Below are positions 26,191 through 46,409 of a stretch of DNA of 64,000 nt, in pieces (position 1 is the stretch's first letter; every line of letters starts with the position of its first letter). The notes beneath the pieces were generated by a model. The model ran no database searches and was not told the DNA's origin. It saw only the letters and a list, made by a program, of their open reading frames with translations. The stretch comes from Vitreimonas flagellata (GTDB taxonomy: Bacteria > Pseudomonadota > Alphaproteobacteria > Caulobacterales > Aquidulcibacteraceae): positions 496,001 through 560,000 of the forward strand of contig NZ_SBJL01000003.1 of NCBI RefSeq assembly GCF_004634425.1, given 5' to 3'. Made by a program: the position numbers and the translations under genes.

Positions 26191-26538
26191 CTAGCCGCTC
26201 GACTTCATGGAGTTGAAGGCATTCTCCAACACTATATTGGCCTCTTGGTCGCGCTGGATCGTACTCATTACCCGGTCAACGAGGTTTTGAAACTGCGGGT
26301 CGTTCAACGTGGTCTCGCCAAATTCCTCAACGAGCAGCGCCGACACAAGGGCGCGTCGCAATTCTTGAGGTGGAGCCTCTCCTGTGGCGAGTGTGTCGCG
26401 AATGCGCTCCAGGAAAGCGCGCTTGGATCTGCTCGACGTTCGCGGCGCTTGTGGGCTTGCGCGTTTGGTTTTTGCCGCGTGCTCCAATTGAGCGCGCAGC
26501 ATGATGAGGATCTGATCGGCGGGATTGATCCGCGTCAT
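26191..26538 (-). CDS. Unknown 115-residue protein, last gene of the flagellar operon
   Basis: Predicted soluble and mostly helical: MTRINPADQILIMLRAQLEH, a basic serine-rich linker (SPQAPRTSSRSKR), then FLERIRDTLATGEAPPQELR and a C-terminal helix rich in Asn, Glu and Gln (DRVMSTIQRDQEANIVLENA). No family is recognised. It starts 3 nt after the TPR gene stop, so it is part of the leftward flagellar operon. Small helical proteins at such positions are often export chaperones, rod or hook accessory factors, or anti-sigma factors of the FlgM kind. Since a FliA-like sigma factor is two genes upstream, an anti-sigma role is worth testing. None of these is shown. Confidence 0.7.
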   Translation of the reverse strand: MTRINPADQILIMLRAQLEHAAKTKRASPQAPRTSSRSKRAFLERIRDTLATGEAPPQELRRALVSALLVEEFGETTLNDPQFQNLVDRVMSTIQRDQEANIVLENAFNSMKSSG

Positions 26539-26541
26539 GTC

Positions 26542-27096
26542 TTAGTGCTCGCGCGGCGGGAATTGCCGCAGCATGAGTGCGGTGGCGGAGATTGCCTCGT
26601 CGTCCCCGTCGCCCGATTGGATGAGGAGTTCGCGGCACTTCTCGATGATGAGATGCATGTCGCGACTGAGCGGCGGGTTCTCTTGATTGAGTGCGATGCC
26701 TGCCCCGAGTGTGGTGATGGCGCCTGCGAAATCATCGCGGATGAGACAACGCAAGCCATCGACGAATTTACGTAGATAGTGTTCGTCCGGCAATCGGTCG
26801 AGGCGGCCCCAGGTTTCAAGTGCCGCGTCCGCCTCGCCTGAGGTGAGCTGAAAGAAACCCAGCTGAAAACGTGCGATGGAGAAATCAGGTTCGAGCACCA
26901 CCGCGCGGGAGAGCGATTCATGCGCTTCGATGAGCCGCTTCTCGCCGATCAGGATTGAGCCGCGCAGAAAGTGCAGGCGGCCATCGTCGGGATAGGCAAG
27001 CAGAAGCGCATCGATGCGTGCGATCTGGTCGGCGGGCATGGTCGCCACGCCTGCGCTCAGTTCAGCCATCGTTGCGTCGTCGGCGTATCGTGACAT
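26542..27096 (-). CDS. TPR-repeat protein of the flagellar operon
   Basis: 184 residues with about three tetratricopeptide-like helical pairs: GRLHFLRGSILIGEKRLIEA, AVVLEPDFSIARFQLGFFQL, and TFGAI-like FAGAITTLGAGIALN. The layout resembles the SycD/LcrH class of type III secretion chaperones, which bind translocators or late substrates, but TPR repeats alone do not prove it. It is encoded 9 nt after the FliA-like sigma factor. A second TPR protein (41097-42224) lies after flhA. TPR genes are not part of the standard flagellar core, so this pair is a distinctive feature of the cluster. Confidence 0.8.
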   Translation of the reverse strand: MSRYADDATMAELSAGVATMPADQIARIDALLLAYPDDGRLHFLRGSILIGEKRLIEAHESLSRAVVLEPDFSIARFQLGFFQLTSGEADAALETWGRLDRLPDEHYLRKFVDGLRCLIRDDFAGAITTLGAGIALNQENPPLSRDMHLIIEKCRELLIQSGDGDDEAISATALMLRQFPPREH

Positions 27097-27105
27097 ATTC
27101 GCCCC

Positions 27106-27843
27106 CTAATCCTTGTATCTTAAGCGTGCGCGCACGGCCAGGAGCGCTGTGCGATGCAATTGGGAAACACGGCCGCGGCTCAATTGCAGGAGTTCAGCCA
27201 CGCGCGCGAAATCGACCCCGTTGATGTAATGCTGTTGCAAGATGATGCGTTGGGTTTCGGGAAGGGCCGCCACAGCATCCAACATATCGCGCTGCAATTC
27301 GCGCCACGCCATGCTCTCATAGGCGTTGGGCTCCTCAGAGGGCTGCTCCTCAAGCAGGCGCGCGGCATCCTCCACGACGAGGCCGAGTGCGAGACCATTC
27401 GCAAGCTCCGCGAGTGCAGCGATCGGATCGGTTTCGCTGAGGCCGCTCGTAAGCGAGCGCAGCCGCTCGGCCTCCACCCGACGTCGATGCGAGTATTGTG
27501 AGGCGGCCTCGCTCGATTGCGAAAGGCCGTCGCTGATGGCGCCGCGAATACGCGGCCGTGCATAAGCCTCGAACGGCGCGCCGCGTAAGGGATCGTAGCG
27601 GTCAATCGCTTCCAAGAGCGCCTGGAAAGCAAGCTGCTCAAGATCGCCGCGATCCAAACCATAGGCGGGCCGTCGCCCGGCCTCGCCGCGCGCGACGCGT
27701 TTGGCGAAACCCAGATAATGATCGAACAATTGCGGCCGACAGGCGCGCTGTCGCTCGATACGCCAACGTCGCCAAAGTGACGCCTCGACAGCCGCTGGCC
27801 GTGTCACCAGGCGCAAACCCGGACGCATAGCGCGCGCGCTCAT
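27106..27843 (-). CDS. fliA: FliA-like (sigma-28 group) RNA polymerase sigma factor
   Basis: 245 residues with region 2 (LDRGDLEQLAFQALLEAIDR, YDPLRGAPFEAYARPRIRGA), region 3, and region 4 ending VDFARVAELLQLSRGRVSQL. The order and the RIRGAISDGL motif are typical of flagellar sigma-28. In standard flagella FliA drives late genes once the anti-sigma factor FlgM is exported through the hook. No FlgM, flagellin or chemotaxis gene is present here, so its targets may be different. A sigma-28-like site is seen upstream of flgF. Its start overlaps the fliP stop by 4 bp. Confidence 0.88.
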   Translation of the reverse strand: MSARAMRPGLRLVTRPAAVEASLWRRWRIERQRACRPQLFDHYLGFAKRVARGEAGRRPAYGLDRGDLEQLAFQALLEAIDRYDPLRGAPFEAYARPRIRGAISDGLSQSSEAASQYSHRRRVEAERLRSLTSGLSETDPIAALAELANGLALGLVVEDAARLLEEQPSEEPNAYESMAWRELQRDMLDAVAALPETQRIILQQHYINGVDFARVAELLQLSRGRVSQLHRTALLAVRARLRYKD

Positions 27844-28547
27844 CTGAAACTGCCGACGACGCCCTCGATGACCAGCGCCCAGCCATCGATGACGACGAAC
27901 ATGAGGAGCTTAATGGGAAGCGAGATGGTGGCGGGCGGCACCATCATCATGCCGAGCGAAAGCAAAATGCTCGCGACCACGAGTTCGATCAACAGAAACG
28001 GCAGTAGGATCACAAAGCCAATCGTGAACGAGACTCTCAATTCGTTGAGAATGAACGCGGGCGCCAGCTTGAAGAGATCGACCTCGGCCGGCGTTGCAGG
28101 CGGTTCGGCGCCCGACATCGCGTAGATCGAGGCCAAATCCTCGTCGCGGGTCTGCGCGAGCATAAAATCGCGCAAGGGAGCAGCGCCCGCCTCCATGGCG
28201 GCGTCGACGCTGATCTCGCCAGCGAGAAAGGGTTTGAGTGCGCCTTCGTTCACGCTGGCGAACGTGGGCGCCATGACGAAACTGGTGAGCAGGAGGGCGA
28301 GGCTGACCAGCACCATGTTGGGCGGTGTTTCCGGCATGCCAAAGGCGTGACGCACCATAGCGAGCACAATGGCGATGCGGATGAAGCTCGTCATCGAGAC
28401 GATGATCGCCGGCACAAAGGCCAGCAGCGTAAGCATGAGCCCTGTGCGCACGACTTCCGGGCTTGCAGCTTCGGGTGCGGCGGCAAAGGCGGGTGCGGCC
28501 AGCGACGATGAGATGACCAATGTCGCGAAAAGCAAGAGCCGCTTCAT
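27840..28547 (-). CDS. fliP: FliP, flagellar type III export gate subunit
   Basis: About 235 residues: a cleavable signal peptide (MKRLLLFATLVISSSLAAPA) and hydrophobic segments LMLTLLAFVPAIIVSMTSFI, LVSLALLLTSFVMAP, VSFTIGFVILLPFLLIELVV and SLPIKLLMFVVIDGW, all diagnostic of FliP. FliP, FliQ and FliR form the helical core of the export gate inside the basal body. The ATG at 28547 is chosen; the longer frame from 28718 runs inside fliO and is arginine-rich noise. It overlaps fliO and fliA by 4 bp each. The sequence looks fully functional. Confidence 0.95.
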   Translation of the reverse strand: MKRLLLFATLVISSSLAAPAFAAAPEAASPEVVRTGLMLTLLAFVPAIIVSMTSFIRIAIVLAMVRHAFGMPETPPNMVLVSLALLLTSFVMAPTFASVNEGALKPFLAGEISVDAAMEAGAAPLRDFMLAQTRDEDLASIYAMSGAEPPATPAEVDLFKLAPAFILNELRVSFTIGFVILLPFLLIELVVASILLSLGMMMVPPATISLPIKLLMFVVIDGWALVIEGVVGSFR

Positions 28548-28927
28548 GGCGAGGGCTCCGATGCGCTCTCGCGCGTCTCGAGCACCGTGACCGCGCCGCT
28601 TGGGCCGACGACGAAGAGATAGTCGCGGCCGCGCCAAGTGATGGCGCAGACCTCCGCGTGCGTGCTGACGCGGCGCGCTTCGCGCACCTGGATCTCGCGC
28701 GGACGAGGGCCGAACCATGCTAATGTCTTCACGTTGGCGGGCAGATTGATCATGCCGCGCTTCAGCGCGATTGCTGCAAGCACGGCCACCATCACACAGA
28801 AGAGAAAACCGAGCACAAGACGAAGCAGCGGCAGCTCAAAGCCGCCGCCGGTCGCCAGCGGTGCAGCGATCGCCTGTGTCGGCGCCACGAGGAGGGCCCC
28901 CCCGAATATGGCGACGCTTGGTCTCAT
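28544..28927 (-). CDS. fliO: FliO-like export gate assembly factor
   Basis: 127 residues: an N-terminal hydrophobic leader, one membrane helix (LPLLRLVLGFLFCVMVAVLA) and a small cytoplasmic domain (EIQVREARRVSTHAEVCAIT, DYLFVVGPSGAVTVLE). This is the FliO layout, and the position between fliN and fliP is where fliO belongs. FliO stabilises FliP during gate assembly and is poorly conserved, so the call rests on topology and synteny more than on motifs. Confidence 0.75.
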   Translation of the reverse strand: MRPSVAIFGGALLVAPTQAIAAPLATGGGFELPLLRLVLGFLFCVMVAVLAAIALKRGMINLPANVKTLAWFGPRPREIQVREARRVSTHAEVCAITWRGRDYLFVVGPSGAVTVLETRESASEPSP

Positions 28928-29202
28928 GGCGCGAGGGCGGTGATCCGCACGCCAAAGCGATCGCCGACGGCGACAAGTTCGCCGTGCGCCACCGTGAGGC
29001 CATTCAGACGCAATTCGACAAGCGCATTGAGATTGGCGTCGAGCGTGACAACGCCGCCAGTTTCGAGCGCCTTTAATTCAGCGACGCGCATGACTGCGCC
29101 GCCGAGATAAGTCTCCAACGCCACGTCAACATTGTCGACGACGCTTTCGGGGAGGCGTAGAGCGCCGCGCGAGGGCGCCTTCAATTCAATGTCGGTTCTC
29201 AT
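28924..29202 (-). CDS. fliN: FliN-like SpoA-domain C-ring protein
   Basis: 92 residues, essentially one SpoA domain: VDVALETYLGGAVMRVAELK, VVTLDANLNALVELRLNGLT, and VAHGELVAVGDRFGVRITAL. FliN with FliM forms the lower C-ring, the sorting platform for export and, in motile flagella, part of the switch. It overlaps fliM and fliO through ATGA junctions. The size is near that of compact FliN/SctQ-C proteins, which lack a long N-terminal extension. Confidence 0.88.
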   Translation of the reverse strand: MRTDIELKAPSRGALRLPESVVDNVDVALETYLGGAVMRVAELKALETGGVVTLDANLNALVELRLNGLTVAHGELVAVGDRFGVRITALAP

Positions 29203-29981
29203 GAATGAACATCCTCCGATGTCTGAAGAGGTAGGCGCAGGCGCAGTACGGTCTGATCGCCCTCGGCGGCCAAGTCGCAGCTGGCGGCGACAATGGCGCC
29301 GTTGATGGTGAGATCGAGATCATCGGCGTCGCCGCGATCGAGCACGACGACGTCGCCGAGGCCAAGAGAGCGGACGTCAGAGATGGCAAGATGCGCGCAC
29401 CCCAACATCGCGCCCACGCGAATATCCTGACGCATCAGCGCTTGAGTGATGGGATGCGTTCCGCGCGCCGGCGGTGTCGCTGGACCGGCGAGGCGTTTGC
29501 GCGCCGCCAACGCGCGTTGGCGTGAGAGGCAAAGATAGAGAAGATTGGTTGCGGTCCCTAGCCCTACACTGAAGACGAGCGCGTCGTCGTCGGGACGTTT
29601 GAATTGATTCGTGCGCGGCGCGCCTTCAAGGCCGAACGCTGCGTGAAGACGCGCGAAAAGGTCGAGCGCCGCCGAGGTTGAGAGCGCCGCCATCAATTTG
29701 GAATCGGCTTCGTTGGGGCGTTGCGGCGAGGTGTTGAAGCCAAGCAGCCAAACCCCGATCGGCGCGCGCGGATCGAGAATGAGCGCCATTTCATCGGCTT
29801 CCCATGAATGGGCCTGCGAGCTCATACCTGGAAAGTGTTCACCGCGATATTGGCGAAGCTCGACGCGGCGGGGGGAGGGCATCCAGTCTTCCACCCAAGC
29901 CTCCACGATCGCACGCAGATGGGCATTGAGCGCACCATCGACGAGCGCATTAGCCGGCAACCAGGTGCGGGCGAGACTCAT
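29199..29981 (-). CDS. fliM: Divergent, shortened FliM-like C-ring protein
   Basis: 260 residues; a C-terminal SpoA domain (MRQDIRVGAMLGCAHLAISD, SLGLGDVVVLDRGDADDLDL) follows a variable middle. Canonical FliM is about 330 residues and starts with a CheY-binding EIDALL-type motif; here the N-terminus (MSLARTWLPANALVDG) has none. The protein therefore looks like a SctQ-type platform subunit rather than a chemotactic switch. It lies between flgE and fliN as in flagellar operons. Identification is by position, the SpoA domain and fold pattern; the middle domain is too diverged to judge whether it can contact a FliG. Confidence 0.75.
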   Translation of the reverse strand: MSLARTWLPANALVDGALNAHLRAIVEAWVEDWMPSPRRVELRQYRGEHFPGMSSQAHSWEADEMALILDPRAPIGVWLLGFNTSPQRPNEADSKLMAALSTSAALDLFARLHAAFGLEGAPRTNQFKRPDDDALVFSVGLGTATNLLYLCLSRQRALAARKRLAGPATPPARGTHPITQALMRQDIRVGAMLGCAHLAISDVRSLGLGDVVVLDRGDADDLDLTINGAIVAASCDLAAEGDQTVLRLRLPLQTSEDVHS

Positions 29982-31108
29982 CCCTGACCTCGAATGCCGA
30001 ACAATTGCTGGATCATGTCGTTGGAGGCGGAGATGACTTGTGACGACGCTTGATAACCGCGCTGCACCAGGATCAGCTCGCCGAACTCGCGCGAGAGGTC
30101 GACGTTCGACGCCTCCAATCGGCCCGACACAACTTTGCCCACGCTCGCGCTGACCGTCGTCAAGAATTGGCGCCCGTTCGCGCCGTCGTATTCGAAGAGA
30201 CCGTTGCTTTGCGGGTCAAGGCTCTGGGGATCGGCGAACTTCGCCAATGTGACAGCGCCCAGGGTCTTCTTCTGCTCATTGGAATAAGAGATTTCGAAGA
30301 TTCCATCGTCATTGACGCGCATGGTCGTGATTTCGCCTGCGCCATAGCCGTCCGATTTGGAGACGCGCATCGTGGAAACCTCGCCCGACGAGAACGAACT
30401 CGCCCCAGAGAAATCCAATTCGACCTGGGCGCCGGCGGCGCCGAAGAGCAGTTTGGAATTTGCGGGATCTGGCACGCTGCCCAGAAATTTGAGCGTTTGC
30501 TTGCCGATTTCCCCGGTCCCATCCGTCACCGTCACTTGCCATTCGCCCGCGGGGTCGGTCGCGGCGCGATCGAATTTGACGAGCCAGGTCTTTGCTTCCC
30601 CGGAGGCGTCATAGACTTTTATGTTGGAGAGCGAGAACGTGGTCGCGGTTGTCGAAAGATTGTCGGCAAAGCTAATCTTAGTTGTGGCTTCTGGGTGTGA
30701 GAGGCGATGCGCTGCGACCGAAAGCGCGGTCGGGGCGCCGCCGTCGATGACGGTCAGCTTGTAATCAGTGCCAGCCAAAACAATGTCGCCGTCTTCATTA
30801 ACTTCGAAGGCGCCCGTGCGCGCGAAAGCGTGCTGACCGTCCTTCAAGAGGACAAGAAAGCCGTCGCCATCGATGGCGAGATCAAGATCGCGATCGGTTT
30901 GGCGTAGCTCGCCTTGCGTGAAATCGATCCGGCCCTCGCGCAGGCTGACGCCTTGGCCATTGCCGCCCTGACCGAAGAGATTGGCGAAACTCAGATCACT
31001 TGCCTTGAAGCCAGTGGAATTGATGTTGGTGATGTTGTTGCTGATCTGACGCAGGCCCTTCGAGAAGGCCGCCATGCCGCTCAAGCCGACAAAGATGGAT
31101 CCCAGCAT
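29978..31108 (-). CDS. flgE: FlgE, flagellar hook protein
   Basis: 376 residues. The conserved N-terminus (MLGSIFVGLSGMAAFSKGLR, QISNNITNINSTGFKASD) and C-terminus (LEASNVDLSREFGELILVQR, SSQVISASNDMIQQLFGI) form the coiled core of rod/hook proteins. The middle domain is about as short as in compact hooks. FlgE polymerises on the rod to form the hook, so the structure is expected to reach beyond the outer membrane. No hook-associated protein (FlgK, FlgL) or filament gene accompanies it here. It lies 1 nt after flgD. Confidence 0.95.
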   Translation of the reverse strand: MLGSIFVGLSGMAAFSKGLRQISNNITNINSTGFKASDLSFANLFGQGGNGQGVSLREGRIDFTQGELRQTDRDLDLAIDGDGFLVLLKDGQHAFARTGAFEVNEDGDIVLAGTDYKLTVIDGGAPTALSVAAHRLSHPEATTKISFADNLSTTATTFSLSNIKVYDASGEAKTWLVKFDRAATDPAGEWQVTVTDGTGEIGKQTLKFLGSVPDPANSKLLFGAAGAQVELDFSGASSFSSGEVSTMRVSKSDGYGAGEITTMRVNDDGIFEISYSNEQKKTLGAVTLAKFADPQSLDPQSNGLFEYDGANGRQFLTTVSASVGKVVSGRLEASNVDLSREFGELILVQRGYQASSQVISASNDMIQQLFGIRGQG

Positions 31109-31109
31109 G

Positions 31110-31547
31110 TTAGTCCTCCAGTGCGATGCGCGAGACGCTCGAAAGCGCGATGTTGCTGATGGTGCGTCCGTCGGACGTCTTGATCGTCAGGCGCGGTTCG
31201 CCGGTCTGAAACGAGATCGATTCAACAAGACCTGAAATTGTCGCTTGGCCGGCGGGCACATCCACGGTGCGTCCGAGCACGCTGGTCGCCTGATTGGCGC
31301 CTTGGGCTTGCAGGATGCCCAAGATGCGTTCGCTCATGGTCTGGGTTTGCTGGATCTGTGAGAATTGCGCGAGCTGCGAGACAAACTCGAAATTCTCCAT
31401 GGGCTTCAAAGGATCTTGATACGTGAGCTGCGTCAGCACGATCCGCAGCAGATCTTCAAAGCCCATGCCGAAGGCGTCGGTGGCGGTCTGCCCCGTGCTT
31501 GCGCTCGTGGCGCCGCTTGCAGCCCCAATCGCATCCACTTCAGCCAT
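31110..31547 (-). CDS. flgD: FlgD, hook cap / scaffolding protein
   Basis: About 145 residues beginning MAEVDAIGAASGATSASTGQ. The FlgD signature FEDLLRIVLTQLTYQDPLKP, followed by ENFEFVSQLAQFSQIQQTQT, is clear. A short C-terminal half (TVDVPAGQATISGLVESISF) is smaller than in enteric FlgD (about 230), lacking most of the Tudor/FnIII part. The ATG at 31547 is chosen from homology; the 5' end overlaps the preceding gene's stop by 8 nt. FlgD caps the growing hook and carries the gate-recognition motif for early export substrates. Confidence 0.92.
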   Translation of the reverse strand: MAEVDAIGAASGATSASTGQTATDAFGMGFEDLLRIVLTQLTYQDPLKPMENFEFVSQLAQFSQIQQTQTMSERILGILQAQGANQATSVLGRTVDVPAGQATISGLVESISFQTGEPRLTIKTSDGRTISNIALSSVSRIALED

Positions 31548-32208
31548 GTCGTTCCTCCAGGCCATCCACGCGGGCGCCATTGATGTGCAGATGAACGCGA
31601 AGCCCGCGCTCGGCGAAAAAACTCTCGATTTGGCGGCGCATGGTTTGGACTTCGTTTGGATCCACGGGCGCGGCGACATGGACATGGACGCCGTCGGCGC
31701 CCGTGGACATATGGACCGAGAATGGAGAGGCCGCGCCCGCGCCGCGTCGCGTGATCGGCGCGGGCGACGCGACAGACGATTTCGGCGCGGCGACCGTGTT
31801 GGCGCGCGCTTGGGGCAGCGGTTCGATCGGCGTTAAGCCAGCCTGTGTTGCTCTGGGTGAATTGGAGTCGGGCCTTTGAACGCCTGCCAGATTGTCGGTC
31901 GCGTCGGCTAGGGCTTCTGGGTTACGAGGCGAGATTGCGGCGTCGTTGTCGCGCGTTGCGCAAGCGTCTGACGAGAACTCTATCGAACTTGCCACATCCC
32001 GATCAAACCGTTGCGCGCGCCCATGGGTGGTCTCCATCTTCACGCTATGGCTAAGGCCCGCAGGGCCCGTCGCCGAAAAGCCCAAGGTCTGGTCGCCTGC
32101 GATGGCGGCGAGCACGTCCTCAAACCGCGTGGCGATTGCGGGGGCAGGGGGAGTTGGCATCGGCGGCGCGGGTCTGGCCGCGCGCGGATCATGGACGATC
32201 GCGCTCAT
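31540..32208 (-). CDS. FliK-like hook-length/specificity candidate
   Basis: 222 residues. The long, low-complexity, Pro/Ala/Asp-rich N-terminal part (MSAIVHDPRAARPAPPMPTP) is predicted disordered. The small folded C-terminus (DGVHVHVAAPVDPNEVQTMR, then RQIESFFAERGLRVHLHING) is near the size of a truncated FliK_C domain. It lies between fliJ and flgD, the normal place of fliK, and is the only ruler-like protein in the cluster. The canonical FliK_C motif (LxLxPxxLG) is not evident, so this is assigned from position and overall design. Confidence 0.55.
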   Translation of the reverse strand: MSAIVHDPRAARPAPPMPTPPAPAIATRFEDVLAAIAGDQTLGFSATGPAGLSHSVKMETTHGRAQRFDRDVASSIEFSSDACATRDNDAAISPRNPEALADATDNLAGVQRPDSNSPRATQAGLTPIEPLPQARANTVAAPKSSVASPAPITRRGAGAASPFSVHMSTGADGVHVHVAAPVDPNEVQTMRRQIESFFAERGLRVHLHINGARVDGLEERHG

Positions 32209-32654
32209 GGTCGGCTCCAGCGCAAGAGCGTCATTGCCTCAAGTGCTGTGAGCGCGCGCTCCTCGTCGCGTCTGGCGATGCGGCGCGTCAAGCGACGCGC
32301 GCGGGTCTCGCTGATGCGCCGGCGGGCGTCGGCGATTTTTAGGAGCGCGGCGCGCTCGCTCTCCGCGTCGCGCGCCTCGTCGTGCGCGATTCCAGCATGC
32401 GAGACGCTGGTCTGTGCTTCATCGAGATGGCGCGCGTGGGCGGCGACGACGCCCAGATCCAATCTTGGGCTCTCCATAGCGCGGAGCCAGTCGGCGGCGC
32501 GCGCATCTCGCGCGGCCTCAGCCTCGTTCAACTGGCGTTTCTGTCGCTGCGTCGCTTCTTGGGCGTCGGCGAGGTCGGCGCGTGCAGCGGTCTCGCGCGC
32601 GGCCTGGAGAGCTGCGGCGCGGCGCGCATGGGCGAGTTTTAAGCGCTCATGCAT
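32205..32654 (-). CDS. fliJ: FliJ-like coiled-coil export stalk protein
   Basis: About 149 residues (MHERLKLAHARRAAALQAAR onward), almost entirely alpha-helical coiled coil with many Arg, Ala and Glu. It directly follows the fliI ATPase, overlapping its 3' end by 8 nt. FliJ is the central stalk that links the ATPase to the FlhA ring and helps open the gate. FliJ proteins are weakly conserved in sequence, so position, length and helical pattern are the evidence. The ATG at 32654 is chosen; a longer frame to 32777 runs inside fliI. Confidence 0.7.
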   Translation of the reverse strand: MHERLKLAHARRAAALQAARETAARADLADAQEATQRQKRQLNEAEAARDARAADWLRAMESPRLDLGVVAAHARHLDEAQTSVSHAGIAHDEARDAESERAALLKIADARRRISETRARRLTRRIARRDEERALTALEAMTLLRWSRP

Positions 32655-33966
32655 GGGCGCGCTCCGCGGGCGCCGCTCTGGAGAGTGCGGCGATGGTTTC
32701 AGCGAGGCGCATGCGCTCGCCGCTTGCTTGGCGCAGGAAGCGGGTGAGGCCGTCGCGCGCGGCGATGGCGCGATCAATGCGCGGATTGGCCCCCGGCTTA
32801 TGCAGGCCGCTCTCGATCATCACACGCGCGTCTTCATGTATGGCCAGAAGCTCGGTGGCGCGCGCGGCGGCGTCCGCGTGGTCGCGGGCCACGACGTCAC
32901 GGGCGACGCGCGAAACAGATCGCAGAACATCAATGGCCGGATAATGCGCCTGCTCAGCCAATTGGCGCGAGAGCAGGATATGGCCATCAAGCAGCGATTT
33001 CATGGTCTCCGCGATCGGATCGTCGACATCGTCGGTTTCAGCGAGCACGGTCATCACCGCCGTGATGGCGCCACCGTCGCGCGCGGCGCCGCAGCGTTCG
33101 ACGATGCGGGGCAGGGCCGAAAAGACGTTGGGCGTATAGGCGCGCAAGGTGGGCGGCGCGCCCGCGGCCAGACCGATCTCGCGCTGGGCCATGGCAAAGC
33201 GCGTGACGGAATCGACGATGAGCAACACGTGTTCGCCCTGACCGCGCCAATGTTCGGCGAGCGCCAGCGCCTGAAAAACAGCGCGCGCGCGCATCGGTGC
33301 GCTCTGATCGGAGGTGGCGGCGACGCACGTGAAGCGCCTCAGATCGGGCCGCGCCGCGATCGCACGCCAAAGCGCCTCAACTTCACGCCCGCGCTCGCCG
33401 ACCAAGCACATGACGCATCGGTCGGCGGCGACCCCTTGGGCGAGTTCGGACACAAGCGTCGTCTTGCCGACGCCAGCCGCCGCGAAAAGACCAATGCGCT
33501 GGCCTTCGCCCAAGGTCAGCAAACCGTCGATGGCGCGAATGCCGGTCTCGACCACGCGCGCGGCGCCGCGGCGCTCAAGCGGCGCCAACACACGGCCCTG
33601 CAGCGGCAGATAGGCGTTGGCGAGGATGGCGCCGCCATCATCAATGGGCTCGCCCAATGCGTTGACCGCGCGACCAGCGAAGCCATCGCCCACTGCGGCG
33701 CGCGCGCGCGCGCCTCGGGCGATCACGCGTGCGTGCGGGGCGATGATGGCGTTCTGATCGAGAGGCACGAGGACGACGCGCGCTTCGCCCACTGCCGCCA
33801 CTTCGGCGAGCACCGCCCCGTTGGCGGTTTCGATCTCGCACATGTCGCCGACACTCACCATCGGACCACGCGATTCGACATGACTTGAGGCGACCGCCCG
33901 CACTTGCCCGACCCGGCGCGCGGGCGACACCTGCGCGAGCGTGGCCACAAAGGCGTGATCGCTCAT
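32647..33966 (-). CDS. fliI: FliI, flagellar export ATPase
   Basis: About 439 residues. Walker A is AAAGVGKTT, Walker B is EHVLLIVDSVTRFAMAQREI, and the F1-beta-like GAPPTLRAYTPNVFSALPRI loop is present. The C-terminal chaperone/hexamer domain (LAEQAHYPAIDVLRSVSRVA) is intact. It forms the hexameric ATPase that unloads export substrates, with FliH and FliJ. The ATG at 33966 (MSDHAFVATLAQVSPARR) overlaps the fliH stop. The Walker A differs from the usual GSGVGKS form in having Ala for Gly and Thr for Ser; both still fit the P-loop. The enzyme looks active. Confidence 0.95.
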   Translation of the reverse strand: MSDHAFVATLAQVSPARRVGQVRAVASSHVESRGPMVSVGDMCEIETANGAVLAEVAAVGEARVVLVPLDQNAIIAPHARVIARGARARAAVGDGFAGRAVNALGEPIDDGGAILANAYLPLQGRVLAPLERRGAARVVETGIRAIDGLLTLGEGQRIGLFAAAGVGKTTLVSELAQGVAADRCVMCLVGERGREVEALWRAIAARPDLRRFTCVAATSDQSAPMRARAVFQALALAEHWRGQGEHVLLIVDSVTRFAMAQREIGLAAGAPPTLRAYTPNVFSALPRIVERCGAARDGGAITAVMTVLAETDDVDDPIAETMKSLLDGHILLSRQLAEQAHYPAIDVLRSVSRVARDVVARDHADAAARATELLAIHEDARVMIESGLHKPGANPRIDRAIAARDGLTRFLRQASGERMRLAETIAALSRAAPAERAHA

Positions 33967-37182: not shown

Positions 37183-37192
37183 ACGCGCGCTC

Positions 37193-39560: not shown

Positions 39561-40327
39561 CGGCGCAATCCGTTGGCAATCGCCATCAATTGATCAGCGG
39601 CTTGCACAATCTGCGCGTTGGCGGAATAAGCCCGCTGCACGATCATGAGCCGCACCATCTCGGCGTTCAGATCGACATTGGAGCGCTCGATCGCGCCATG
39701 CACAAAGGCGCCTGCGCCGTCCTGATCGGGCGTCAAGTCTTGAACCCGCGCGTCCTCGCGCACGCGATAAAGCCCACCGTCCAGACGCTCCACATCATCG
39801 GCCGAGCCAATGGCGACGAGCCCGATGCGCCCAAGATCGACAGGCGCATCGGCGTCCGCGCGGATGGCGCGCACACTGCCGTCGGCGCCGACGGCGATTT
39901 CGCGCGCGTCGGTCGGCACATTGATCATTGCGCGCAACGCCATGCCGTCGGCGCTGGCCAGCGTGCCGTCCTCTTGGATGGAGAGCCGCCCACCGCGCCA
40001 GAGCAGGATCTCACCGCGCGGCCCCAGCAATTCGATGAAGCCGCGTCCCTCAATGGCGAGGTCCAATTGATGACCGGTGGATTCAATGATGCCCTGGTCG
40101 TCGAGCGCGATCGAAACATGCGCGTTGACACTCGAGAAGAGCGGCGCGCGCGCCAGATCCGTGCGCGGGTTCATGGGATCGGCTTGGCGCGCCATCACAT
40201 CTGAAAAGCTCACTTCGGCGCGCTTGAAGCCCGGCGTGTTGATGTTGGCGATGTTGCCGGCGATGGCGTCAAGCGCCTGCTGCTGGGTGACGAGGCCGAC
40301 ACCGGAGATTTCGAGGGCGCCGTTCAT
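39557..40327 (-). CDS. flgG: FlgG, distal rod protein
   Basis: 256 residues (about 260 expected). N-terminal motif: VTQQQALDAIAGNIANINTP, then GFKRAEVSFSDVMARQ. C-terminal: AIERSNVDLNAEMVRLMIVQ, RAYSANAQIVQAADQLMAIA. The distal rod passes through the P and L rings, so the machine is expected to cross the outer membrane. It overlaps flgF and flgA. Confidence 0.93.
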   Translation of the reverse strand: MNGALEISGVGLVTQQQALDAIAGNIANINTPGFKRAEVSFSDVMARQADPMNPRTDLARAPLFSSVNAHVSIALDDQGIIESTGHQLDLAIEGRGFIELLGPRGEILLWRGGRLSIQEDGTLASADGMALRAMINVPTDAREIAVGADGSVRAIRADADAPVDLGRIGLVAIGSADDVERLDGGLYRVREDARVQDLTPDQDGAGAFVHGAIERSNVDLNAEMVRLMIVQRAYSANAQIVQAADQLMAIANGLRR

Positions 40328-41007
40328 CCTTGTCTCCGCGTGAAGGTCGAAATCGTCTGTCCGATCAAAGTGTCGTAGGTTTGCACCACGCGCGCGCCGA
40401 TCTCGGCGCCGCGGATCGCGGTCATCATGTCCAGCATCTCGCTGGCGAGCGCCACATTGGCGCCTTCCAACATGCCTGGGCGGATTTGCGCGTTCTCCAC
40501 GGGTAGTGCGGCGTCGGTTTGGAAATAGATTCCGCTGACGCGCGCGAGCGTTGCATCCTCGTGCGGCGTGAAGACGCCAATACGGGCGATTGGGACCCCG
40601 CGTTCGCTCACCACGCCGTCTGCGGAGACCTCCGCGTCGGCGGCCACGAAGAGATCGCCGCCATCAATGGCTTGGAGAAGGGCGCCGGCGGCGTCGGCAA
40701 GACGGCCCTCTGTGTCGCGATGAAAAGCGCCGGCGCGCGTGTAGAGCAATTGTTCGCCCGCACGCACTTGAAAGAAGCCGTCGCCGGCGATGGCGAAGTC
40801 AAAACGCCCATCTGTCTGGCGCAAGGGGCCGATGTCGAGATTGCTGCGCGCGTCTGTTGACGCTTCGGCGCTCTGCAATTGTTCAAAATCGATTTCGGAT
40901 TTGTATCCGGTCGTTGTCGCGTTCGCGACATTGCGCGAGACGGTTTCCAATCGTCGTCGTGATGACGCCAGAAGAACTTCACCGAGCTCCAACAAACCTT
41001 GCGTCAT
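40324..41007 (-). CDS. flgF: FlgF, proximal rod protein
   Basis: About 227 residues from MTQGLLELGEVLLASSRRRL, with rod motif VSRNVANATTTGYKSEIDFE and C-terminal LEGANVALASEMLDMMTAIR. It is the first gene after the only sizeable gap (about 90 nt) inside the flagellar block, so it likely starts a second transcription unit (flgF to the 115-residue gene). A sigma-28-like site is in that gap. The ATG at 41007 is chosen; a longer frame to 41052 adds non-homologous residues. Confidence 0.9.
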   Translation of the reverse strand: MTQGLLELGEVLLASSRRRLETVSRNVANATTTGYKSEIDFEQLQSAEASTDARSNLDIGPLRQTDGRFDFAIAGDGFFQVRAGEQLLYTRAGAFHRDTEGRLADAAGALLQAIDGGDLFVAADAEVSADGVVSERGVPIARIGVFTPHEDATLARVSGIYFQTDAALPVENAQIRPGMLEGANVALASEMLDMMTAIRGAEIGARVVQTYDTLIGQTISTFTRRQG

Positions 41008-41067
41008 CGTTTGTCCCCTTGTTGTTAACACTAAAAGGGAACTTAATTGCACACGCTAAGGTTTTCT

Positions 41068-41094
41068 CTTTCGGCGTGAAGCGTAAGTTTCTTT
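41068..41094 (-). promoter_or_regulatory. Sigma-28-like promoter upstream of flgF
   Basis: Read leftward, AAAG (41094-41091) is followed by 15 nt and GCCGAAAG (41075-41068). The flagellar sigma-28 consensus is TAAA, 15 nt, GCCGATAA, so three of four and six of eight positions fit. The predicted start is near 41060, about 50 nt before flgF. A FliA-like sigma factor is encoded at 27106-27843. This is a motif match only. Confidence 0.35.
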
Positions 41095-41096
41095 TC

Positions 41097-42224
41097 TCAT
41101 GCGAAGAGTCCGTACCGCGCAAGCGAGTGTGCGATGGTTTTTCCGCCTGGTTCGATAGGCGTGTGGAGCGCACGATCAATTATCGATTGTGCTCGTTGGC
41201 TGTCGCCTTCACTCGCGATGATGAGCGCGTTAGCGAACGCGCCGGAGAATGAGTTTCGGTCCAGTCGAAGTGCGATCGCGCCAAGCTTTCGCGCCTCTAA
41301 TACATTGCCTTCCATTGCAGCGATCACCGCAAGCGACCCTTGGCTTTCCGAGAAGCTTGGATCGATGGCGAGCGCGTGTTCGAAATGCTGGCGCGCCGCT
41401 TGGGGCTCGCCCGCAATGAGACGCGCCCAACCCGCCGCGATCCAACTGCCGATGTGATCCTTAAAGAGTTCTGCGCCGCGCTCGATGTCGCGTGAGGCGC
41501 CTTTATGATCTCCGGTGAGCAGGGCAGTGAGACCCCGGCCGACCAGCGCGCGCGGGGAATTCGGGGCGCGCGCGAGCGCTGCTTCGAAATGGGCGCGCGC
41601 GGCATCTGGTGAATCGTCGGCGAGCGCCAGCGTCCCCAAGCTCGTCTCTGCATCAGGGTGACCCGCTGCGCCCGACGCGCACGCGCGCGCGAAATTCATA
41701 TCCTCGGCGTCGATGGCGATGGTGGAGGCCGCGGCCAGCAATCCAGGATGCTCGGGGTATCGCTCCACATTGGCTTTGGCGGCTTTGAGCGCGTCCTCAT
41801 ATCGCCCACTCGCGTGCAACAATTGGACTTCGAGCATCGCCGCTGGCGCGGATGCAGCGATCGTGGCCTCGTCCAAGAGCGCCAGCGCTTCATCGAAGCG
41901 CTCTTCCATGCCGAACGCCCAAGCTAGATTGAAGCGCAGCGATGGATCTTGCCCGTGCGTCTCCATGAGCGGTGAGAGAATAGAGATGGCCTTGCCCGAA
42001 TTCCCCTGGGCGATGGCAAGGCGCGCAGCGAGATCCTGATCGGAAGGGGCAAGGCTCCCCAATTCGCAGAGGCGCGCAAGCAGCGCCTCGGCCTGATCGA
42101 GAGCGCGCGCGCTCATAGCGGCTTGCGCCGCGTCACGCAGCAGGCTCGCATTCTTTGGATCGTGATCGAGGTAGGTCAGAAGGCGCGCGAGGCGCGCCTC
42201 GGCCTCATTGGAGCTGGACGCCAT
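41097..42224 (-). CDS. Large TPR-repeat protein of the flagellar operon
   Basis: About 375 residues with at least eight helix pairs, for example AAMSARALDQAEALLARLCE, SLRFNLAWAFGMEERFDEAL, RALVGRGLTALLTGDHKGAS and AARQHFEHALAIDPSFSESQ. It has no signal peptide or membrane helix, so is probably cytoplasmic. It follows flhA with a 20-bp overlap, so is expressed with the export gate. TPR scaffolds bind substrates or chaperones; a substrate-sorting role is attractive but unproven. ATG 42224 is chosen; a GTG one codon upstream also works. Not part of the standard flagellar set. Confidence 0.85.
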   Translation of the reverse strand: MASSSNEAEARLARLLTYLDHDPKNASLLRDAAQAAMSARALDQAEALLARLCELGSLAPSDQDLAARLAIAQGNSGKAISILSPLMETHGQDPSLRFNLAWAFGMEERFDEALALLDEATIAASAPAAMLEVQLLHASGRYEDALKAAKANVERYPEHPGLLAAASTIAIDAEDMNFARACASGAAGHPDAETSLGTLALADDSPDAARAHFEAALARAPNSPRALVGRGLTALLTGDHKGASRDIERGAELFKDHIGSWIAAGWARLIAGEPQAARQHFEHALAIDPSFSESQGSLAVIAAMEGNVLEARKLGAIALRLDRNSFSGAFANALIIASEGDSQRAQSIIDRALHTPIEPGGKTIAHSLARYGLFA

Positions 42225-44316
42225 CACTCATCCTTGTCTCAACCATGGGCCGGCGCGCGGGTGCGGGCTCGCGCTTGGCCTCATCTTCATCCAGGCGCAC
42301 GATCAGATGCGATCTTAGATCGATGCTCGCCGGAATCTCATTAACGGATATCACCGAAAGCTTGGGCAGCGACCTTTTGGTCAGCGCGCGCAGCTGACGG
42401 CGAATGTCGCCGCCGCAAAGGAGTACGGGTGCTCGCCCCTGGCGCATCATGTCATTGACGCCGGCGCCCAGTTTACGGAGCACTTTTTCCGCCAAACGCG
42501 GATCGATGGCCAACGCGTCGCGGCGCGCGCTCGTGTTGATGGCGCCGCTGATCTGGTTTTCGAGGCGCGGATCAAAGCTCATCACGGCAAGATCTCGGTG
42601 GCGATCACGCAAACGACTGCAAATGGCGTGCCCCAATCTTTGGCGTAAAGCTTCGGTCAGGGCGCCCGGGTCACGTTCGCTGCGGGCCAGATCGACCAGA
42701 TGTTCGATGATAAGATCAGTTGCGCCGATCGAGATCGATTCCGAGAGCAGGTTCTGCAAAATCTTCTGTAGATCAGACAAAGACAGTAATTGCGGAATGA
42801 GTTCTTCCACGAGACCCGGTTCGCGGGCGCGGACATCTTCGATAAGCTTGACGACAGCGGAGCGATTGAGAAGCGTCGGCGCCTCAGCGCCAAGCACCTC
42901 GCCCAAATGGGTAATGAACACTGTCAACGGATCGACGATCGTGTAGTTTTCCGCGCGCGCCTCTTCGCTGCGCGCGGTCTCGATCCAGATCGCCGGCAGC
43001 CCGAACGCTGGATCGACGGTTTCTACACCTGAAAGCCGGGCGCGCTCGCCTTCGCCGCGAATGGCCAGCACGCAATCGCGGCGGATCTCACCCTGCGCAT
43101 GCCGTGAGCCGAAAAGACGGATCTCGTATTCGTCGGGCGCCAGTCTTGCGTCATCTACGAACGAGAGAGGCGGAAAGCCAAAACCCAGCGCGCGCATTTG
43201 GCTGTCACGAAGAGCGGCGATGCGATCCAGAACGAGCGGCTCGATGGGCCGCCAGCTCTCGGCGAGCGCTTTGCCGATCGCGATGGAAAGCGCGGGCGTT
43301 TGGGCCGTATCGTTGGTGCTTGTCGCTGTCTCGTCTTTCACATCCGTGTCGGGCTTCTCGCGTGCGTCGCGCGCGATGCGTCGCCAAGCGAAATAGAGTC
43401 CTGCGAGCACCAGAAGGATTGGCCATTTCGGCATGCCGGGCAGTAGCATGAGCAAGATGAGAAGGCCGCCGACAATGAGCGGCACGCGCGGCGCCGAGGA
43501 CAATTGCTGGAAGACTTCGGTGCTCAAGCGCCGGTCCGCCGAGGAACGGGTAACGATGATGCCCGTCGCTGTGGATATGATGAGCGCGGGCAATTGGGTG
43601 GCGATGCCGTCGCCGATGGTCAGCAGTGTAAAGTGGGCGAGCGCGTCGTCCCAGCTCATGCCCATTTGGGCCACGCCAATGATCCAACCGGCGATGATAT
43701 CGATGAGCAAGATGATGACGCCCGCGATCGCGTCGCCCTTGACGAATTTGCTGGCGCCGTCCATCGCCCCATAAAAAGAGGCCTCTTTCTCAAGCGCTGC
43801 GCGGCGTCGGATGGCTTCCTTCTGATCGATGAGTCCCATATTGAGGTCAGCGTCGATGCTCATCTGCTGACCGGGCATGCTGTCTAGCGTAAAGCGCGCC
43901 GCGACCTCCGAGACGCGCTGGGCGCCCGCGGTCACGACCACATATTGAACGACGACGAGAATGAAGAAGACGACGAGACCAACGACGAAATTGCCCCCGA
44001 CGGCGTAAGCGCCGATGGAGCCGATGACCTCGCCCGCCTCGGCGTTGCTGAGGATAAGACGCGTTGCGGCGATATTGAGCGCCAGACGAAAGAGTGTGGA
44101 GATCAGCAAGAGGGACGGGAAGGTCGAGAACTCGACGGGCTTTTGCACATGCAGCGTCAAGAGAAGGATAGTGAGCGACAGTGCAAAATTGATCAGCAGG
44201 GCCAGATCCAGCGCCACCGGCGGGATCGGCGAGAAGAGCACGAAAAGAATAAGCACGACGCCTGCGATGAGGCTCAATTCACGGCCGTCGCGCAGCATGG
44301 ATTTAAGCGCGTCCAT
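42205..44316 (-). CDS. flhA: FlhA, export gate and substrate-docking protein
   Basis: 703 residues with an N-terminal membrane half (VVLILFVLFSPIPPVALDLA, FPSLLLISTLFRLALNIAAT), the conserved FHIPEP-type loop, and a cytoplasmic ring domain (LHELGEVLG-like HLGEVLGAEAPTLLNRSAVV, LLSESISIGATDLIIEHLVD). FlhA forms the nonameric ring where chaperone-substrate complexes dock. Length matches the family. It overlaps flhB by 14 bp and the downstream TPR gene by 20 bp. Confidence 0.95.
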   Translation of the reverse strand: MDALKSMLRDGRELSLIAGVVLILFVLFSPIPPVALDLALLINFALSLTILLLTLHVQKPVEFSTFPSLLLISTLFRLALNIAATRLILSNAEAGEVIGSIGAYAVGGNFVVGLVVFFILVVVQYVVVTAGAQRVSEVAARFTLDSMPGQQMSIDADLNMGLIDQKEAIRRRAALEKEASFYGAMDGASKFVKGDAIAGVIILLIDIIAGWIIGVAQMGMSWDDALAHFTLLTIGDGIATQLPALIISTATGIIVTRSSADRRLSTEVFQQLSSAPRVPLIVGGLLILLMLLPGMPKWPILLVLAGLYFAWRRIARDAREKPDTDVKDETATSTNDTAQTPALSIAIGKALAESWRPIEPLVLDRIAALRDSQMRALGFGFPPLSFVDDARLAPDEYEIRLFGSRHAQGEIRRDCVLAIRGEGERARLSGVETVDPAFGLPAIWIETARSEEARAENYTIVDPLTVFITHLGEVLGAEAPTLLNRSAVVKLIEDVRAREPGLVEELIPQLLSLSDLQKILQNLLSESISIGATDLIIEHLVDLARSERDPGALTEALRQRLGHAICSRLRDRHRDLAVMSFDPRLENQISGAINTSARRDALAIDPRLAEKVLRKLGAGVNDMMRQGRAPVLLCGGDIRRQLRALTKRSLPKLSVISVNEIPASIDLRSHLIVRLDEDEAKREPAPARRPMVETRMSDGVQLQ

Positions 44317-45388
44317 GCGCGGCCTCCGGCGTCTTGGCGCGCGCGAGCGCCAGATAGAGGTGGGCGATCTCGCGGTAGAGTGCGCTAGGCGCCTCTTCGC
44401 CCGGGGCGCACGCCTTGAAGAGCGCGCGCGCCAGAGGCGGCGCTGAGATGATGGGCACAGCCAACAGATTAGCGCGCCGCTTCAGCTCCAGGGCAAAATG
44501 ATTGCGGCCCTTGGCCAGCACGATGGGCGCTGACATCGTCTTTGCGTCATAGGCGAGCGCCACGGCGTAATGCTCTGGGTTGACGATCACCATGTCGGCC
44601 CCGCCTAAGGCGCCAAAGCCTTTGGTCTGTTTGGCGAACTCGGCGTGCAATTGACGCCGCTTTTGTTTCAGACGCGGTTCGCCTTCGCGCTCCTTATGTT
44701 CGCGGGTAAGCTCGGAGCGGCTCATGCGCATCTGCTTGGAGAACTCGCCGCGCGACACCACTTGGTCGAGTGCGGCGAAGATGAGCGCGATCATGAGGAA
44801 GGCAAAGCCAAGCTGTCCTGCGCGTTCATGAAGCGCATCGATCAGACTGGCCGTGTCGACGATGGAAGCTGCGCGCAACGCCAACGCCTCGCGGATGATG
44901 AGGAAGGCCGCCGCGCCATAGAAGACAAGCTTTAGGACATTCTTGCCGGTCTCCTTCAGCATGCGCATCGAGAAGATGCGTTTGAGCCCCTTGGCTGGAT
45001 TGAGGCGGTTGAAATCTGGCTTCAGCGGCTGGGTCGAGACGACGATGCCGCCCACCTGCACGATCTCAAAGGTGGCCACCACCGCCATGATGACGGCGCC
45101 CATCAGCGCCACATTCTGGAACGCATTCCAGAAGGGAGAGGCGGCCATCGCCAGAGCCTGGGGCGCTGTCGCGATGTCGGCGATGTCGCCATAGAGACGG
45201 TGCGCATCGAGTGTGGTTTGGCGTAGAAAAGAGACCCCGCAGAAGGCGGCGAAGGCGATGAAGGCGCCAAGACTTGAGAAGAAGCCAAGATCAATGCCGC
45301 GCGCCACCGCACCCTTCTGGCGCGCGCGCTTCAATTTGAAGGGCGTCGCTTCTTCGGTCTTGTTTTGCTCAGAACCGCCGTCCTGCAT
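44303..45388 (-). CDS. flhB: FlhB, export specificity switch
   Basis: 361 residues, four membrane segments (GFFSSLGAFIAFAAFCGVSF, VFYGAAAFLIIREALALRAA and others) and a cytoplasmic domain with the auto-cleavage site. The site reads NPEH (ADMVIVNPEHYAVALAYDAK) rather than the usual NPTH; the Asn-Pro pair needed for self-cleavage is kept, and NPEH occurs in some homologues. FlhB switches export from rod/hook to late substrates when the hook is complete. Its stop overlaps flhA and its start overlaps fliR. Confidence 0.95.
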   Translation of the reverse strand: MQDGGSEQNKTEEATPFKLKRARQKGAVARGIDLGFFSSLGAFIAFAAFCGVSFLRQTTLDAHRLYGDIADIATAPQALAMAASPFWNAFQNVALMGAVIMAVVATFEIVQVGGIVVSTQPLKPDFNRLNPAKGLKRIFSMRMLKETGKNVLKLVFYGAAAFLIIREALALRAASIVDTASLIDALHERAGQLGFAFLMIALIFAALDQVVSRGEFSKQMRMSRSELTREHKEREGEPRLKQKRRQLHAEFAKQTKGFGALGGADMVIVNPEHYAVALAYDAKTMSAPIVLAKGRNHFALELKRRANLLAVPIISAPPLARALFKACAPGEEAPSALYREIAHLYLALARAKTPEAAHGRA

Positions 45389-46143
45389 CAGGCAAATCCC
45401 AAGGATGCGTCGAGCGCCATGCGCACAATGCGCAGGAAGAGCGCGCCTGAGAGCGAAAAGACCATGGGCAGGGTCATAAGAAGCGCCAAGGTCTTGACCT
45501 GGAAGCCCAGCACCAAAACGTTCATTTGCGGCAGGGTGCGCGACATGAGCGCGATCGCCACATCGAGCATGAAGAGCGTCATGAACACCGCCCCGCCAAT
45601 CCCCATCGCCAAGAGGAAGACCGCGCGAAGATAAGTGAGCAGGGGATCGAGGCTTGCTCCCAGCACGAACCCGCCAATGGGCACAGAATCGATCGAACGG
45701 GCCCAGATCGCCAAGAGATCGGTCGGCCCCCCAGTGGTGAAGAAGATCGCCGCCGCCGCGTAGGAAAAGAGCGCCCCCACGAGCGGCATCTGCGCGCGAA
45801 GCGTGGGGTCAGCGATTTGCGCCAAGCCAAAGCCCACTTGCACGTCAATGGCGCGCCCAGCCGTCTGCAGCGCCGCAAACCCAAGCTGGAGCGGCAGCGC
45901 GATGGTGATGCCCAGCAACACTTCCGCGGCCGCGGCCCCCGCGAGTGTCGACATGTCGAAGGATGGGATCGGCGATGCTGTGGCGACGAGAAGCCAGCCA
46001 AGGCTGACCGCCAAAAGCACGCGAATGGTGGCCGGCGTGCGCAACAAGGTGAAGGGCGGGGCGAACGCCAGCACCGGGATGATGCGCAGGCTGACGAGCA
46101 GTGCGGCGATCAGCTGGTTTGGAAGCGCCTCGAGCATCGTCAT
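45388..46143 (-). CDS. fliR: FliR, export gate subunit
   Basis: 251 residues with about six hydrophobic segments: LIAALLVSLRIIPVLAFAPP, IRVLLAVSLGWLLVATASPI, AEVLLGITIALPLQLGFAAL, MPLVGALFSYAAAAIFFTTG, VFLLAMGIGGAVFMTLFMLD, and FQVKTLALLMTLPMVFSLSG. These match FliR. It closes the FliP/FliQ core of the gate. It overlaps fliQ and flhB. Confidence 0.95.
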   Translation of the reverse strand: MTMLEALPNQLIAALLVSLRIIPVLAFAPPFTLLRTPATIRVLLAVSLGWLLVATASPIPSFDMSTLAGAAAAEVLLGITIALPLQLGFAALQTAGRAIDVQVGFGLAQIADPTLRAQMPLVGALFSYAAAAIFFTTGGPTDLLAIWARSIDSVPIGGFVLGASLDPLLTYLRAVFLLAMGIGGAVFMTLFMLDVAIALMSRTLPQMNVLVLGFQVKTLALLMTLPMVFSLSGALFLRIVRMALDASLGFA

Positions 46144-46409
46144 CCGCCGAGCGAGGGGATGGTGTTGTAAAGCGAGATGGCGAATTGGTTGAGCTTGCCC
46201 AGCATCCAGCCGCCCAACACCAGGAGAATGAGGGCGGCCGCCAGCAGTTTCGGCACGTAGCTTAACGTGATTTCCTGAATCTGCGTCGCCACCTGCACGA
46301 CGCTAATCAAGAGCCCAACGATCATAGTCGCGCCCAAGAGCGGCGCGCCCACAATGAGCGCCGTCCACACCATTTCATGCAGGAAAAAGAGAGCCTGATC
46401 GGCGCTCAT
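46140..46409 (-). CDS. fliQ: FliQ, export gate subunit
   Basis: About 89 residues, MSADQALFFLHEMVWTALIV, with two membrane hairpins (GAPLLGATMIVGLLISVVQV, VPKLLAAALILLVLGGWMLG) and the FliQ loop ATQIQEITLSYVPK. It is the first gene of the leftward flagellar operon. ATG 46409 is preferred over an upstream in-frame TTG at 46427. The promoter should lie in 46410-46600, but no convincing sigma-54 or sigma-28 site is seen. Confidence 0.93.
   Translation of the reverse strand: MSADQALFFLHEMVWTALIVGAPLLGATMIVGLLISVVQVATQIQEITLSYVPKLLAAALILLVLGGWMLGKLNQFAISLYNTIPSLGG

Follow-up and report, generated by a model that had tools for sequence, protein, structure and literature searches.

A flagellum-type gene cluster without motor genes in Vitreimonas flagellata, probably dedicated to the export of giant Rhs toxins

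The window analyzed here, a stretch of 64,000 nucleotides of the Vitreimonas flagellata genome (contig NZ_SBJL01000003.1, positions 496,001 to 560,000), carries on its minus strand a compact, operon-like run of genes (26191-46427, ∼20 kb) for a flagellum-type basal body and hook, with a giant Rhs gene on either side. This locus raises the question of what such a cluster could build when motor and filament genes are missing from it. With a probability of roughly 70%, we read it as a type III secretion system (T3SS) that derives from a flagellum, does not rotate, and is dedicated to Rhs toxin export. An earlier, sequence-only reading of the window had proposed a non-rotating delivery machine of flagellar origin and had overlooked the Rhs genes on both sides, the pair of TPR proteins, and a small protein at the fliG position. 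Judged from sequence, its proposal appears to be supported by the conserved gene set, by constraint, and by co-occurrence with Rhs genes.

Twenty-eight minus-strand open reading frames (ORFs) within the cluster were chosen, read, and then scanned against Pfam, 10 of them also against NCBIfam. The scans confirmed a 20-kb basal body and hook cluster, in which rod, L and P rings, hook, and export gate were all identified (Pfam). The limits of the listed ORFs overlap, and true starts therefore possibly lie inside them. In gene order from the gate end, the ORFs are as follows.

46140..46427, minus strand: FliQ (Pfam)
45388..46143, minus strand: FliR (Pfam)
44303..45388, minus strand: FlhB with an NPEH cleavage-type motif (Pfam and sequence reading)
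42205..44316, minus strand: FlhA (Pfam E value, 4.5e-225; placed in the tree)
41097..42227, minus strand: TPR41097, a TPR protein of 376 amino acids (aa) (Pfam TPR; conserved with the system)
40324..41052, minus strand: FlgF (Pfam)
39557..40327, minus strand: FlgG (Pfam)
38880..39560, minus strand: FlgA (Pfam)
38308..39234, minus strand: FlgH, L ring (Pfam E value, 8e-42)
37193..38311, minus strand: FlgI, P ring (Pfam E value, 9e-103)
36841..37413, minus strand: FlgB (under the Pfam cut-off; TIGR01396 E value, 3e-10, likewise under cut-off)
36416..36844, minus strand: FlgC (Pfam)
36087..36419, minus strand: FliE (Pfam)
34866..36083, minus strand: FliF, 405 aa (Pfam, NCBIfam; without a FliG-binding-like tail)
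34607..34876, minus strand: x34607, small helical protein at the fliG position (similar ORFs in relatives; adaptor candidate)
33963..34610, minus strand: FliH/SctL-like (Pfam T3SS_SCTL E value, 1e-4; 22.2 bits, just under the cut-off of 23.3)
32647..34011, minus strand: FliI ATPase (Pfam ATP-synt_ab, T3SS_ATPase_C)
32205..32777, minus strand: FliJ candidate, named by position (no Pfam match; similar ORF in some relatives)
31540..32208, minus strand: FliK candidate, named by position (no Pfam or NCBIfam match)
31110..31685, minus strand: FlgD hook cap (Pfam E value, 1.2e-17)
29978..31108, minus strand: FlgE hook protein, 376 aa (Pfam/NCBIfam)
29199..29981, minus strand: FliM-like protein, 260 aa (SPOA, FliM/N-type; without a CheY-type N-terminal motif or PF02154 match)
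28924..29202, minus strand: FliN (Pfam FliMN_C E value, 2.7e-15)
28544..28927, minus strand: FliO candidate, named by position (conserved in relatives; no Pfam match)
27840..28718, minus strand: FliP (Pfam E value, 1.6e-68)
27106..27843, minus strand: sigma-70 factor, FliA/WhiG-like (FliA_WhiG, 93 bits; cut-off, 189.6)
26542..27096, minus strand: TPR26542, 184 aa (TPR matches in Pfam; alignments A1 and A6; marker of the system and chaperone candidate)
26191..26538, minus strand: x26191, 115 aa (no Pfam match; adjoins TPR26542 in relatives; chaperone or regulator candidate)

As the sequence-only reading had stated, FliG, flagellin, FlgK/L, FliD/S, MotA/B, FliL, and FlgJ were matched by none of the 28 ORFs (Pfam); secretin and needle proteins were not matched by them either (Pfam and NCBIfam). 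Its label of FliA-like for the sigma factor holds as to likeness and not as to strength, given a score far under the cut-off, and is fair but weak.

An ordinary flagellum split over two loci is contradicted by the rest of the genome (3.9 Mb, 16 contigs), in which FliG and flagellin were searched for, primary MotA/B and FliM being outside the search. The sole FliG_C match (contig C2:487600) lies in a separate locus that has its own FliF (a 559-aa ORF), FlhA, FliI, and FliN, 34 to 38% identical to the window copies, as well as FlgE (29%) and FlgD (37%). Two further ORFs of that locus look by eye like FlgK and FlgL, and the one flagellin of the genome is on contig C5.

A second, lateral or alternative flagellum, borrowing the primary FliG, stator, and filament and still moving cells, would fit the presence of FliG and flagellin in the genome, the complete rod, rings, and hook of the cluster, and the primary FlhA found in all five family genomes that have a second FlhA. 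FliF and the FliM-like protein speak against it. The reduced FliF noted from the sequence was borne out by a TIGR00206 match confined to residues 19 to 214, and its length was 374 to 434 aa in 31 of 33 named homologues, so that the short form is no local truncation; the two longer ORFs (501 and 521 aa) probably extend into upstream sequence. Primary FliF has a typical FliG-binding tail at its end, and a pattern that we composed for this tail was present in primary FliF and in none of the 33 named homologues. In the most distant relatives FliF measured 472 aa (a Burkholderia plasmid) and 483 aa (genome G242), and the plasmid copy did not match the tail pattern.

The FliM-like protein is predicted to fold as FliM (AlphaFold pLDDT, 82.6; best PDB match by Foldseek, Salmonella FliM; E value, 2e-9; 14% identity). 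Among 26 members, PF02154 and the CheY-type motif were found in none and the GGxG motif in one (both motifs being typical of FliM), which agrees with the earlier claim that a CheY-binding FliM is lacking. All 26 share a conserved N-terminal W-x-P. It is also the fastest evolving of eight genes compared, with 38% identity to its counterpart in genome G038 versus 76% for FlhA and FlgE. The genome's FliG, used as a blast query, gave no match at an E value of ≤1 in the cluster pieces read from relatives, 42 kb of the Burkholderia plasmid among them, in a search that had no distant-FliG positive control. Candidate ORFs occupied the fliG slot in 37 of 42 pieces, of which 19 sequences were aligned, the homology of the rest being unchecked. 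x34607 is predicted to be helical (pLDDT, 85), and 3 of the 19 aligned members gave weak MgtE_N matches (best E value, 0.029). We do not claim it as a hidden FliG (hhalign against one FliG sequence, E value, 0.48; best PDB fold match, E value, 8). An alternative flagellum would also leave the Rhs linkage unexplained, and we hold it to be decidedly unlikely.

In a tree of FlhA with 40 rows, the 20 rows from clusters of this kind grouped together with support of 100/99. Alphaproteobacterial primary flagella lay outside this group, as did the SctV side (100/99), which places the window FlhA in a clade separate from the primary flagellar copies. Flagellar sampling in this tree was thin outside Alphaproteobacteria; one Arthrobacter flagellar FlhA, whose branch is very long, joined the group's side, with a placement that is unsure according to a program warning, and a Sinorhizobium FlhA was left out on account of its fragmented match. 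The NPxH motif of FlhB is kept in 26 of 26 named homologues, as NPEH in 17 of them.

Among 60 family genomes, the FliM-like query matched seven (G024 through a FliN-like stretch only) and some FlhA was found in 57. A second FlhA (60 to 100% identity) beside a copy near 40% was identified in five, namely the window's own genome, G038, G059, G028, and G009; other full-length FlhA matches in the family were about 37 to 41% identical, and four genomes gave partial matches only, of up to 56%. When TPR26542 was used to scan 84,980 species genomes, 43 named loci were obtained, with carriers including Sphingomonas, Novosphingobium, Hyphomonadaceae, Ponticaulis koreensis, "Candidatus Phycosocius spiralis," Collimonas sp. 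OK412, and a betaproteobacterial metagenome-assembled genome (MAG), among others. At least four flagellar gene families were present on the fetched piece at 41 of the 43, locus L126 having none and L143 being cut at a contig start; the G035 and G324 loci are likewise cut by contig ends. Gene content and order are largely alike across relatives; in several, the fliQR-flhBA block is inverted or lies elsewhere. A conjugative Burkholderia ubonensis plasmid matched 24 window gene families, carries a 4897-aa Rhs/LysM protein, and has an FlhA 54.5% identical to that of the window. On this plasmid the FliM-like part and FliN form a single 363-aa ORF (L165:33742-34833), an arrangement resembling that of injectisome SctQ.

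That the cluster is the relic of a decaying flagellum, as the missing motor and filament genes and the missing fliHIJ at one locus (G244) could suggest, is hardly credible: gene set and order are for the most part shared by dozens of species from two classes, the FlhA clade is monophyletic, and the rate of nonsynonymous substitution (dN) was under the synonymous rate (dS) in all eight genes tested (dN/dS, ∼0.1 to 0.6, with dS near saturation). The comparison with Buchnera drawn in the sequence-only reading is not apt, as the cluster has a separate FlhA lineage, occurs also on a conjugative plasmid, and involves no decaying primary flagellum.

What the machine could export is suggested by its neighbors. 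All 33 RHS_repeat matches in the genome fall within two genes that flank the cluster, each followed by an immunity candidate.

14651..25273, plus strand: RHS1, 3540 aa (Pfam RHS_repeat, DUF6531, LysM, WHH, Colicin-DNase; candidate cargo)
25270..25758, plus strand: SUKH (SMI1/KNR4) immunity candidate for RHS1 (Pfam SMI1_KNR4 E value, 2e-15)
46702..57096, plus strand: RHS2, 3464 aa (divergent from fliQ with 274 bp between; N-terminus as in RHS1)
57093..57512, plus strand: immunity candidate for RHS2, 139 aa (by position, overlapping the RHS2 stop; no significant Pfam match)

RHS1 comprises a conserved N-terminus (MVSIFTGLGAGFERGS...), Rhs repeats, LysM, a hydrophobic segment, and a C-terminal WHH/colicin-type nuclease. 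RHS1 and RHS2 are 49% identical across ∼3100 residues and diverge more toward their C-terminal ends, a sequence pattern that looks like that of polymorphic toxins. Features of such toxins are all present: a long conserved N-terminal part, a variable C-terminal toxin, and an adjacent immunity gene (by position for RHS2). The C-terminal toxins differ, with WHH in RHS1 and an HHH nuclease in genome G140. The C-terminal domain of RHS2 belongs to no Pfam family; a by-eye impression of GIY-YIG had no Pfam support and is not claimed. In five Rhs proteins picked by pattern (the window Rhs genes and L174 among them), a KCGxxG-type motif and a long hydrophobic segment follow LysM, and this part possibly crosses a membrane.

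Generic Rhs repeats occur in 27 of the 60 family genomes and are too common to serve as a marker, so the N-terminal region was used instead. Its first ∼110 residues are conserved from Alphaproteobacteria to Collimonas and Burkholderia (alignment A5, 18 rows), with invariant positions that include M1, G7, G11, S16, G21, G24, and G32. This N-terminus was found in four family genomes, all within the five that have a second FlhA. In the order sample it was found in 10 of 398 genomes, that is, 10 of the 15 with the TPR26542 marker and 0 of the 383 others (Fisher p, 1.2e-16, without phylogenetic correction and, the species being related, no count of independent events); the 10 span four families and seven genera. 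Among the 43 named marker-bearing genomes it was identified in 37, the misses being L123, L124, L126, L144, L156, and L161 and the weakest matches L164 (E value, 5e-15) and L125 (E value, 5e-22), both short frames. The order sample also contains the family genomes and 9 of the 43 named records; outside it, 32 of 34 named genomes carried the N-terminus. The class sample (1 of 385 genomes, the window's own) includes no other recognized cluster-bearing genome and is a negative control only; 25 further matches to A6 in that sample (42 to 54 bits) were taken as generic TPR proteins and left uncounted, their loci uninspected.

Adjacency was frequent as well. Rhs sequence lies on the same fetched piece at 25 of the 43 named loci, although that of L123 is a short match at the edge of a contig. 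One contig of G009 breaks off within an Rhs gene, and the contig with flhB-flhA begins with Rhs pieces. In G140, L138, and L143, TPR26542, x26191, and Rhs form an uninterrupted run on one strand, the best hint of a chaperone and its cargo.

Linkage is no proof of export, and the machine could export only its own rod and hook proteins, forming a short adhesion or contact spike, with the Rhs genes linked to it because the spike aids their action or because both share a mobile element, as the relative on a conjugative plasmid would allow. We think this unlikely, since every order-sample genome with the Rhs N-terminus also has the marker, since the class sample yielded this N-terminus from the window's own genome alone, and since G047 lacks both the second FlhA and the Rhs N-terminus while Rhs C-terminal pieces remain. 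At that locus (L107, C12, 1-9691), only sigma, TPR26542, and x26191 are left, beside tandem Rhs C-terminal pieces that each start near a LysM domain and are perhaps orphan toxin cassettes left after exporter loss. Rhs pieces also stand at the far cluster end, like spare toxin cassettes, in L106 (G217 C1:2402117-2403266) and L119-L120 (G244 C11:20857-26167).

Exit of the Rhs proteins by another route, such as the type VI secretion system (T6SS) or Sec, with other cargo for the cluster (for example, its unassigned small proteins), is very improbable. Rhs toxins elsewhere make use of the T6SS (compare PMC11461821). Neither RHS1 nor RHS2 has a PAAR domain by Pfam (T6SS genes in the genome were not searched for), and the Rhs N-terminus is absent from the marker-free genomes sampled, common as Rhs repeats are in the family.

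Under the reading as an Rhs export system, the FlhAB/FliPQR gate and the FliHIJ ATPase would be seated in the shortened FliF ring, and rod and hook proteins would be exported through the L and P rings to give a hook-ended channel without a filament. Self-cleavage of FlhB, whose NPxH motif is kept, would then switch export from hook proteins to a late cargo, the giant Rhs toxins. These would be recognized through their conserved first ∼36 residues, and the TPR26542/x26191 pair would hold them in an unfolded state and guide them. Outside the cell the Rhs shell would refold and bring the variable C-terminal nuclease to competing cells, the producer being protected by the adjacent immunity gene. 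The torque-related parts appear to be gone (FliG, stator, the FliG-binding tail of FliF, and the CheY-binding end of FliM), and the small helical protein at the fliG position may link the ring to the sorting platform.

Several observations weigh against this reading. The Rhs frames are ∼3000 to 5590 aa long, and flagellar substrates are far smaller. The proposed chaperone role of TPR26542 is suggested by its position and TPR fold. The Rhs N-terminus is absent from 5 of the 15 marker-bearing order genomes (G047, G059, G035, G324, and G242) and from 6 of the 43 named ones; most of these negatives are fragmented MAGs, and some have Rhs pieces beside the cluster. In G242 no Rhs sequence was found within the 20 kb read, and its FliF, which did not match the tail pattern, ends in ...RIRGWLEESGA, resembling a FliG-binding tail by eye, so that tail loss may postdate the branching of G242. 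This divergent relative (L121, C32; FlhA, 48%) may have undergone less reduction or serve a different cargo. At the G244 locus (L119, C11:13004-13575), no recognizable fliH, fliI, fliJ, fliK, or x34607 lies between flgD and fliF, so that not every such locus includes the ATPase; G244 still has gate, rod, rings, hook, and Rhs there. Mimicry of a hook signal by the Rhs N-terminus is not claimed either: it looks FlgE-like by eye, but among 3261 ranked ORFs FlgE placed no better than 6%, the corresponding values being 3% for FlgG, 5% for FliE, and 2% for the FlgF ORF.

No description of this system was found in openly available full-text literature, a scope outside which most subscription papers and bioRxiv lie. 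The cluster resembles the flagellar type III export apparatus and hook-basal body in its gate, ATPase, MS ring, rod, L and P rings, hook, FlgD, and FlhB NPxH motif, and differs from a flagellum in lacking FliG, stator, and filament genes at the locus, in its reduced FliF tail and FliM, and in its separate FlhA clade. According to passages of PMC9927559 and PMC7277350, non-flagellated Lysobacter enzymogenes OH11 kept flagellar export genes without fliG, motAB, flgKL, fliD, and fliC, and its flagellar T3SS was reported to export FlgD and heterologous flagellin. The two are alike in having export genes without motor and filament genes, but Lysobacter also lacks fliM, flgB, and fliE, and its system consists of retained genes of one genus rather than a mobile, dedicated system; Rhs is unmentioned in the main texts of these papers. 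Pectobacterium carocins are antibacterial proteins reported to exit by the flagellar T3SS, but their export reportedly needs ordinary flagellum genes, including fliC, and the cargo is low-molecular-weight bacteriocins, not Rhs (PMC8672553).

Like the non-flagellar T3SS, including the form in Myxococcales, the cluster would have passed from flagellum to protein export through loss of motility parts (passages of PMC3459982). Unlike these systems it keeps rod, P and L rings, hook, FlgB, FlgC, and FliE, has no secretin among its 28 ORFs, and has an FlhA outside the SctV group; by the corresponding passage of that paper, it would count as a flagellum. With Rhs polymorphic toxins as treated in parts of PMC3482391, RHS1 and RHS2 share the Rhs core, variable nuclease C-terminus, and adjacent SUKH immunity, and they differ in a distinct N-terminal region, the lack of PAAR, and the tie to a flagellar-type machine. 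The same source mentions an RNase that occurs with flagellar operons of Firmicutes and for which delivery through the flagellar system is considered possible. The hat-like structure described in part of PMC9380563 is unrelated to the cluster.

On balance, we consider it probable that the cluster represents a third use of the flagellar export machine besides flagellum and injectisome, namely a mobile, motorless, and hook-ended secretion system that is dedicated to bringing giant Rhs toxins from one bacterium to another and possesses an N-terminal signal, a TPR chaperone, and a late-substrate switch of its own. If so, it would be another living case of a flagellum turned into a delivery machine, separate from the injectisome and retaining rod, rings, and hook, and the question of how a flagellum becomes a secretion device would become directly testable. 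It would also provide a possible exit route for Rhs toxins without T6SS docking domains.

Directly right of RHS2, 59708-60829 and 60826-62673 include a TrbI/VirB10-type conjugation gene (PF03743), and minus-strand ORFs near it may belong to the same conjugation set. A patatin-like phospholipase gene (PF01734) lies at 62762-63916.

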